A DNA stretch of 64,000 nt from Myxococcales bacterium (lineage in GTDB: Bacteria > Myxococcota_A > Polyangia > Haliangiales > Haliangiaceae), in NCBI GenBank assembly GCA_016794525.1, contig JAEUJY010000164.1:62001-126000 (forward strand), in the 5' to 3' direction. The position numbers were made by a program, and so were the translations under genes. Below, piece after piece: positions 18,984-20,338 of the stretch (its first letter is position 1; every line of letters starts with the position of its first letter). Below the pieces are notes generated by a model. That model was not told the DNA's origin, ran no database searches, and saw nothing but the letters and a program-made list of their open reading frames with translations.

Positions 18984-19718
18984 ATGGCGAAGCTGAACCA
19001 GATCCTGGCCATCGAGAAGGGCCTGAAGACCCGCGTGTACGCGGAGTTCACCGAACTGCACAACGCCACCCAGAAGCCGGGCCTGATGAACGGCTTCCAC
19101 AAGGCGTACCAGCCGCGCGACGAGGAGGGCGAGACCTATCCGCCCGAGTCGCAGAAGGTGCAGCACAACGCGAGCGAGGTGTTCGAGCGGGTGGCCGCCA
19201 TCCTCACCGAGCTGTTCGACATCACCGCGACCAAGGACTGGGCGAACTGCCACGCCAAGGCCGACGTGGTCATCGACGGCCGCGTCCTGCTCAAGGACGT
19301 GCCGGCGACGTACCTGCTGTTCCTCGAGAAGCAGCTCTCGGATCTGTCGACGTTCGTCGCCAAGATGGCCGAGCTCGACCCCGGCTCCGACTGGTCGGTC
19401 GATCCGTCGACCGGGCTGTTCCGCACCGAGCCGCAGGCCACCCAGCGCACCAAGAAGGTGCAGCGGCCGATCGTGCTGTACGACGCCACCGAGCACCACC
19501 CGGCGCAGACGCAGCTCATCACCGAGGACGTGATCGCCGGCCAGTGGGTCACGATCAAGCACTCGGGCGCGCTGCCGGCGCCGCGCAAGAAGCTGCTGCT
19601 CGCCCGCATCGAGCGGCTGTCGAACGCGGTGAAGTACGCCCGCGAGCAGGCCAACGCGATCGAGTCGCCCGATCAGAAGCTCGCGAAGGACGTGTTCGCG
19701 TACCTGTTCGCGCCGTGA
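18984..19718 (+). CDS. DUF7873-type conserved protein of unknown function
   Basis: 244 residues from ATG with GAGGGA upstream. The sequence [13 protein letters not shown], the motifs [23 protein letters not shown] and HPAQTQLI, and the C-terminal coiled region ([20 protein letters not shown]) match a family I remember mainly from Actinobacteria (name DUF7873 from memory). It is soluble, with no signal peptide. No function is known to me. A hexanucleotide array begins 9 bases after the stop and an unusual RNA locus follows. Confidence 0.8.
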
Positions 19719-19726
19719 GATAGGCG

Positions 19727-19876
19727 CTTCCGGTTCCGGCTCCGGCTCCGGTTCCGGCTCCGGTTCCGACTCCGGCTCCGGCTCCGGCTCCGGTTCCGAC
19801 TCCGGCACCGGCTCCGGCTCCGGCTCCGGTCCCGACTCCGGTCCCGACTCCGGCTCCGGCTCCGGCTCCGGCTCCG
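19727..19876 (+). repeat. Hexanucleotide array (GGCTCC/GGTTCC/GACTCC)
   Basis: About 25 tandem hexamers, mostly GGCTCC with GGTTCC, GACTCC and GTCCCGACTCC variants, directly after the DUF7873-type gene. Reading frames through it give only Gly-Ser, Arg-Leu-type or Pro-Glu repeats and are not genes. The same unit, on the other strand, makes the array at 54.1-54.3 kb and the E2 linker at 61.4 kb. Confidence 0.9.
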
Positions 19877-19923
19877 ATTTTCGATCCACAGGCACGAGGA
19901 GGTGCCCACCCCGTTTCTCCGTT

Positions 19924-20109
19924 GGGAGACAAGCTCAGACTCAGATTCAAGCTCAAGGAGCAGTCGACCAGGCGTGGAGGTTCGAATCCTCCCGGGAGCA
20001 CCGACGGTTCGCCGTCCGTGACGTCCCGCCCCCGTGGCGAAACTGGTAGACGCGGGTCGCACAATCGCGGCCTGTCTGGTCCGGCTGACGCAATCTGAGA
20101 CTCTCTCCC
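19924..20109 (+). ncRNA. Permuted tRNA-like RNA 1 (Leu-type D-arm)
   Basis: The 3' half precedes the 5' half. 3' half: CGACC (19965-19969), variable loop AGGCGT, T-arm GGAGG-TTCGAAT-CCTCC (19976-19992), acceptor CGGGAGC (19993-19999), A73. A 28-base linker with hairpin GACGG-TTCG-CCGTC follows. 5' half: acceptor GCCCCCG (20028-20034), D-arm TGGCGAAACTGGTAGACGCG, then GGTCG (20055-20059). GGTCG falls at positions 27-31 and pairs fully with CGACC; the acceptor pairs 6 of 7 (one C-A). T8, A14, A15/T48, G18, G19, G26, T54-A58 and C61 are in place. The flanks pair: CTCAGATT with AATCTGAG, and GGGAGA with TCTCCC. No anticodon loop with U33 can be assigned and no CCA is encoded. A decayed tRNA is the main alternative. 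Confidence 0.5.
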
Positions 20110-20141
20110 AGCCTCAACCGGCCGAGCTCGCCATCTCCATC

Positions 20142-20246
20142 GTCGTCGCCCAATGCCCAGGATGCCGGTTCGATTCCGGCAGTCGGCGCCATCTATGCCG
20201 ACTTGGACCAAAGGCAAGTCATGGGTACTAAGACCTGAGCGACGAC
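20142..20246 (+). ncRNA. Permuted tRNA-like RNA 2, CCA encoded
   Basis: 3' half: GCCCA (20155-20159), variable loop, T-arm GCCGG-TTCGATT-CCGGC (20164-20180), acceptor AGTCGGC (20181-20187), G73 and an encoded CCA. After 5 bases, the 5' half: acceptor GCCGACT (20197-20203, 7 of 7 pairs), T8, D-stem GAC/GTC around a loop with AAAGGCA, A26, and TGGGT (20222-20226), which pairs with GCCCA (one G-U). A15/T48 and the T-loop invariants are present. Beyond the anticodon stem, GTCGTCGC (20142-20149) pairs perfectly with GCGACGAC (20239-20246), so the transcript ends are held together. The anticodon loop is replaced by an asymmetric internal loop, and U33 is not evident. Confidence 0.5.
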
Positions 20247-20298
20247 AACCGCCGTTGGCGTGCGAACACGGCACCTGCGCAGGGATGCTGCGCAGTCC

Positions 20299-20338
20299 GA
20301 ACCCCGGAGTAGGCTACACTCCCGGGGTTCACTATTTT
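20299..20338 (+). terminator. Rho-independent-type terminator of the RNA locus
   Basis: A 12-bp stem with one bulged C (GAACCCCGGAGT / ACTCCCGGGGTTC), a 7-base loop, and then ACTATTTT. It is preceded by another perfect 7-bp hairpin (CTGCGCA / TGCGCAG, about 20275-20295). It lies about 50 bases past the second tRNA-like RNA and before the convergent damaged gene. Confidence 0.6.

Follow-up and report, generated by a model that had tools for sequence, protein, structure and literature searches.

What kind of RNA is encoded directly downstream of the DUF7873 gene in the 64,000-nucleotide stretch of Myxococcales DNA analyzed here (the window)? A preliminary description had regarded this segment as two tRNA-like RNAs (RNA 1 and RNA 2), each with its 3' half placed before its 5' half and without a usable anticodon. 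This view was borne out across the homologues, and all strings quoted in its support were found in the sequence where they had been placed. The conserved RNA unit has a size of ~410 nt (Table 1) and consists of two circularly permuted tRNA-like domains, domain 1 (RNA 1) and domain 2 (RNA 2); the segment is conserved throughout the genus (7/7 genomes) and in other members of the family. Compared with dinucleotide-shuffled controls the locus folds more stably, moderately so for RNA 1 (19924–20109; z = -2.2), clearly for RNA 2 (20142–20246; z = -3.3), and with z = -2.0 for the whole locus. Neither ARAGORN nor Rfam detected a tRNA, a tmRNA or any other family in the window, Rfam had no match at the locus or over the homologous segments, and tmRNA covariance models did not match the locus; an identity as ordinary tRNA or tmRNA was rejected. 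Elsewhere, the source genome encodes numerous normal tRNAs as well as an ordinary one-piece tmRNA (at C26). Neither the anticodon nor U33 is conserved across the homologues in either domain, and decoding is unlikely because no anticodon has been kept. Junctions of tandem identical tRNA genes are a real source of false permuted matches (L124, L125); this artefact is excluded here because no intact tRNA lies within the window.

Table 1. Features of the DUF7873-associated RNA locus (positions in the window) and of a further protein family with permuted RNAs (positions in the respective loci).
Feature	Position	Strand	Evidence or remark
DUF7873 (PF25283) gene	18984..19718	+	Pfam 341.6 bits; co-occurs with the RNA; probable RNA partner
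Whole conserved RNA unit	19923..20333 (ends approximate)	+	Alignments A1 and A2; homologues in 12/56 relatives
Leader with GGGAGACA and hexameric repeat (YTNARN)n	19924..19955	+	Pattern count; conserved in alignment
Domain 1 variable arm, 3' strand (CAGTC GACCAGGC)	19961..19973	+	Pairs with 20074–20087; partner swap 0/2000
Domain 1 T arm GGAGG-TTCGAAT-CCTCC	19976..19992	+	Alignments across homologues
Domain 1 3' acceptor strand CGGGAGC, discriminator A73, CC	19993..20002	+	A73 in 43/48
Domain 1 5' acceptor strand GCCCCCG, then TG and Leu-like D arm	20028..20053	+	6/7 acceptor pairs
Domain 1 anticodon-arm-like hairpin without conserved anticodon	20055..20072	+	Alignments across homologues
Domain 1 variable arm, 5' strand (GTCTGGTC C GGCTG)	20074..20087	+	Partner swap
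Conserved middle segment with CTCTCTCCCAGCCTCA	20092..20119	+	Alignment, hexamer pattern; contains GGGAGA/TCTCCC partner strand
Domain 2 helix P4, 5' strand	20126..20133	+	Pairs with 20256–20263, one T-T mismatch here; partner swap 0/2000; relatives
Domain 2 helix P3, 5' strand GTCGTCGC	20142..20149	+	Covariation; partner swap 0/2000
Domain 2 anticodon-stem 3' strand GCCCA	20155..20159	+	Covariation
Domain 2 T arm GCCGG-TTCGATT-CCGGC	20164..20180	+	Homologue comparison
Domain 2 3' acceptor strand AGTCGGC, G73, CCA	20181..20191	+	CCA in 27/51 homologues
Domain 2 linker TCTAT and 5' acceptor strand GCCGACT	20192..20203	+	Probable RNase P site T20196/G20197; U-1 33/51, G+1 43/51
Domain 2 D arm	20206..20220	+	Homologue comparison
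Domain 2 anticodon-stem 5' strand TGGGT	20222..20226	+	Covariation, partner swap
Domain 2 helix P3, 3' strand GCGACGAC	20239..20246	+	Covariation
Domain 2 helix P4, 3' strand	20256..20263	+	Relatives; partner swap
3' hairpin, terminator-like, conserved GGNTA loop	20300..20329	+	Conserved in alignments
~700-aa family and permuted RNAs	L126 2483–4612 and 4664–4763; L133 5058–7166 and 4673–4921; L137

Domain 2 is a class-I-like element; its opening lies in the anticodon loop, and its arms continue into a jointed stem (helices P3 and P4). Its parts follow each other in the order P4, P3, anticodon stem, T arm, acceptor, NCCA, linker, acceptor, D arm, anticodon stem, P3, P4. Covariation was computed in 12 homologues, with percentages referring to paired cells: helix P3 (GTCGTCGC/GCGACGAC) is 97.7% paired with two-sided changes at six of its eight pairs, and the GCCCA/TGGGT stem is 95% paired with two-sided changes at three of five. 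A partner-swap test, in which 3' partners were exchanged among 33 loci in 2000 permutations and helix quality was compared, found no permutation as good as the real pairing for the anticodon stem, P3 or P4. Of the outer helices of the preliminary description, by which a long jointed helix would replace the anticodon loop in both RNAs, those of RNA 2 are confirmed. In the Myxococcota the D loop of domain 2 (20210–20216) could pair with a downstream GCCGTT segment (20252–20258) to form a pseudoknot, which is not clearly seen in the phages.

Domain 1, judging from its sequence, is a tRNA-Leu opened in the variable loop rather than in the anticodon loop, with a hairpin still present in the anticodon position. 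Its order is variable-arm 3' strand, GT, T arm, acceptor 3' strand, A73, linker, acceptor 5' strand, TG, Leu-like D arm, degenerate anticodon-position hairpin and variable-arm 5' strand. Across loci, RNA 1 is consistently read as this hairpin combined with the long variable arm. For the variable arm, none of the 2000 permutations was as good as the real pairing; its pairing drops to 50% when alignment A2 is read in the fixed register of the window, owing to small insertions by which the relatives differ. The pairings originally assigned to RNA 1 fared differently. GGGAGA/TCTCCC is conserved and 93% paired, but shows no covariation because it is nearly invariant, whereas CTCAGATT/AATCTGAG is not conserved (66% of cells paired; 4–7 of 12 genomes at five of the eight positions) and the CGACC/GGTCG stem is unsupported, with 3–9 of 12 genomes pairing per position.

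Outside the two domains, a hexameric YTNARN repeat marks the leader and the middle segment of the RNA; the pattern T-N-A-R-N-B-T-N-A has 111 matches in 34 loci, with 17 expected. Pairing of the leader is weaker than that of the domain helices (1/2000 permutations as good in the partner-swap test with 33 loci). An array of GGCTCC/GGTTCC-like hexamers at 19727–19880, between the DUF7873 stop codon and the RNA, is absent in the aligned relatives. The 3' hairpin was not called by the terminator scan; its GGNTA loop is kept from Myxococcota to phages, and the hairpin is perhaps more than a plain terminator.

Features of the acceptor loop bear on whether the domains are cut into two pieces, as had been proposed for both RNAs. 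Among 51 non-redundant copies of domain 2, 27 carry CCA, 33 U-1 and 43 G+1, and among 48 copies of domain 1, 43 carry A73 and 13 CCA, although the binomial p-values for CCA, U-1, G+1 and A73 are overstated since the sequences are related. The conservation of CCA, U-1 and G+1, as would be expected at an RNase P site, favors a two-piece product for domain 2, for which the idea appears reasonable; the chances that RNase P nicks this loop are estimated to be about even. Domain 1, in contrast, may stay closed, since its acceptor linkers can be as short as 4–6 nt and its U-1 is not significant. The further suggestion that the helix guides a joining of halves found no support. A73 of domain 1 would be compatible with leucine. 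N73 of domain 2 varies (U in 30, G in 11, A and C in 5 copies each), which argues against one conserved synthetase. A relation between the CCA state of domain 2 and CCA coding in neighboring tRNAs was suggestive, but exceptions were present and the independent cases were too few for it to be upheld.

The RNA is linked to the DUF7873 gene. Among 56 related genomes, DUF7873 was found in 13 and the RNA (E ≤ 1e-5) in 12, with an overlap of 12, so that at this threshold none had the RNA without DUF7873. The thirteenth DUF7873 genome (G007, locus L045) contains a divergent copy, missed by blastn, with two permuted domains beside DUF7873. For a wider survey, DUF7873 relatives were drawn from bacterial genomes, viral contigs, phages and plasmids and scanned with a detector for a T arm, 3' acceptor strand, linker, 5' acceptor strand and D arm in permuted order. 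At least one permuted domain was present within 700 nt downstream in 53 of the 57 DUF7873 loci (Planctomycetes, Actinomycetes, viral contigs, named phages), and matches were dense downstream of DUF7873 (74 in 39.7 kb) compared with the remainder of the same loci (6 in 887 kb); shuffled sequence yielded none in 794 kb. Some loci, from Rhizobium and Vibrio phages, seemingly have one domain only, and the detector found no permuted domain at the DUF7873 locus of a Microcoleus phage. In one Myxococcota locus (L063, 3741–3905, minus strand) two domains lie upstream of DUF7873 on the other strand.

Bacterial carriers beyond the Myxococcota include Streptomyces and Nonomuraea. Phage carriers include Arthrobacter phage Mimi, Gordonia phages Phendrix and Ziko, Rhodococcus phage NiceHouse, Pseudanabaena phage Pam2, Klebsiella phage KpLz-2_45, Rhizobium phages, Vibrio phage K479 and RHph_Y65. 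In several phages the cassette occupies a stretch of a tRNA array in which no genes are annotated; the phage records list the DUF7873 gene as hypothetical and do not annotate the RNA. The tRNA array of Phendrix also contains an Rfam tmRNA match of 89 bits (L113, 3075–3603) that is not annotated in the record. Neither the protein partner nor the phage spread had figured in the preliminary description.

The DUF7873 protein has no recognizable fold or catalytic site, although its AlphaFold (AF2) model is confident (pLDDT 92.6). No clear fold match was obtained in the PDB or BFVD: the best Foldseek hit in the PDB (E 3.6e-3) had a TM of 0.16, the best VIA-align result (Z 6.0 at 13 Å rmsd) gave no useful lead, and the sole hint is BFVD entry A0A7M1RW91 of phage cr118_1 (prob 1.00, TMt 0.59, E 0.027). 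Comparison with PADLOC, PHROGs and PDB sequences revealed nothing significant, and neither DUF7873 nor such an RNA is named in the literature searched, which covered few subscription journals.

The locus is best read as encoding a Y-RNA- or tmRNA-like tRNA-mimic ribonucleoprotein (RNP) with DUF7873 as its likely partner. It represents a conserved and widespread RNA class that has apparently not been described before, and that this class is real can be regarded as nearly certain. The DUF7873 protein is probably the partner of the RNA, and it is more likely than not that the whole is one structured noncoding RNA with two permuted tRNA-like domains working as an RNP with this protein. The data establish the permuted architecture, the covariation and the linkage to DUF7873; from them we infer one transcript, protein binding, processing, function and a mechanism as follows. 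The RNA would present tRNA elbows and acceptor stems to tRNA-binding machinery, and the protein would bind the stems or the hexameric leader repeats, comparable to the YrlA tRNA-like domain with Rsr. RNase P might open the acceptor loop of domain 2, leaving two pieces held together by the acceptor stem and the outer helices, one of them with a 3'-CCA end. Because the cassette is often found in phage tRNA arrays, tRNA handling or resistance to tRNA-directed defense would be the likeliest role, but a role in tRNA handling is proposed tentatively. The full picture, an undescribed bacterial and phage RNP class in which DUF7873 and a double RNA, nicked by RNase P into a CCA-ended two-piece mimic, act in tRNA quality control or against tRNA-directed phage defense, is likewise conceivable, with somewhat less than an even chance of being correct.

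Several other explanations have to be weighed. If RNase P and 3' trimming freed CCA ends while the halves stayed paired, the products could be two-piece aminoacylated tRNAs serving as charged amino-acid donors, in line with the CCA, U-1 and G+1 counts of domain 2 and A73 of domain 1. The leucyl-tRNA synthetase (LeuRS) of E. coli does not need the anticodon. However, the variable N73 of domain 2, the scarcity of CCA in domain 1 and the fact that an unsystematic look at the neighborhood noticed no synthetase or transferase as a conserved neighbor make this reading rather improbable. A decoy or sponge for tRNA-cutting defense enzymes or RNases, carried by phages along with their tRNA arrays, would fit the position of DUF7873 and the RNA inside such arrays and an RNA that offers no anticodon to cut; it is improbable, as the Myxococcota also have a stand-alone chromosomal locus with no tRNAs nearby and PADLOC gave no match.

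The RNA could also be a bacterial Y RNA proper, YrlA-like and bound by the TROVE protein Rsr, with DUF7873 merely an associated gene. YrlA combines a long basal stem with a tRNA-like domain that comprises D, T and acceptor arms (PMC8394870), an architecture also found in domain 2. Searches with a covariance model built from domain 2 moreover recovered permuted domains next to TROVE genes in tRNA arrays, and these domains are consistent with Y RNAs. TROVE is also present in 11 of the 13 DUF7873-bearing relatives. Yet no TROVE match was obtained in G007 and G020, which carry both DUF7873 and the RNA, nine genomes contain TROVE but lack DUF7873, and the neighbor of the RNA is DUF7873 rather than rsr, the TROVE gene of G000 lying on another contig. 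This reading is thus unlikely, and because DUF7873 and TROVE are partly independent, the RNA is called Y-RNA-like in its working and not a Y RNA. Permuted tRNA genes in the true sense, whose products would be spliced into decoding tRNAs as they are in algae, are very improbable: in algal permuted pre-tRNAs the 3' half is likewise upstream of the 5' half and leader and trailer pair (PMC3978253), and an RtcB ligase is present, but an anticodon loop with U33 and anticodon after joining is not conserved across the homologues in either domain.

Two side observations concern similar loci. G000:C7 (L127) and G006:C80 (L128) each contain a large tRNA array with many low-scoring members, a TROVE (Rsr) gene and permuted matches that are probably Y RNAs. 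A family of ~700-aa proteins without Pfam match lies beside at least one permuted tRNA-like RNA with a GGCTATG...CTTCCTTCT motif and possibly represents a further such RNP.

The tRNA-mimic RNP with DUF7873, if true, would add a widespread further case of tRNA mimicry with its own conserved protein of so far unknown function and fold, and give DUF7873 a first testable function. It is present in Arthrobacter, Gordonia, Rhodococcus, Klebsiella, Rhizobium and Vibrio phages, and would provide a way into the question of why tRNA arrays are carried by large phages. Among bacterial noncoding RNAs, tmRNA and Y RNAs are the main known cases of tRNA mimicry, and a two-headed tRNA mimic with its own protein partner was found neither in Rfam nor in the literature searched. 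With two-piece tmRNA, whose transcript is processed to two RNAs (PMC10085705), the locus shares a permuted tRNA-like domain without anticodon, but it has two such domains, the genome has a separate ordinary tmRNA, and in place of the alanine identity pair G3-U70, domain 1 has C-A and domain 2 has C-G at position 3-70. Algal and archaeal permuted tRNA genes resemble it in the order of the halves and the pairing of leader and trailer; here, however, the anticodon is missing, the hosts are bacteria and phages, and domain 1 is opened in the variable arm. The resemblance to YrlA extends to a long stem ending in a tRNA-like domain with D, T and acceptor arms and to the permuted order seen in the candidates beside TROVE, but the present RNA differs by two domains per unit, DUF7873 instead of TROVE as neighbor, a variable arm in its tRNA-Leu-like domain, hexameric repeats in the leader and CCA in the acceptor loop.
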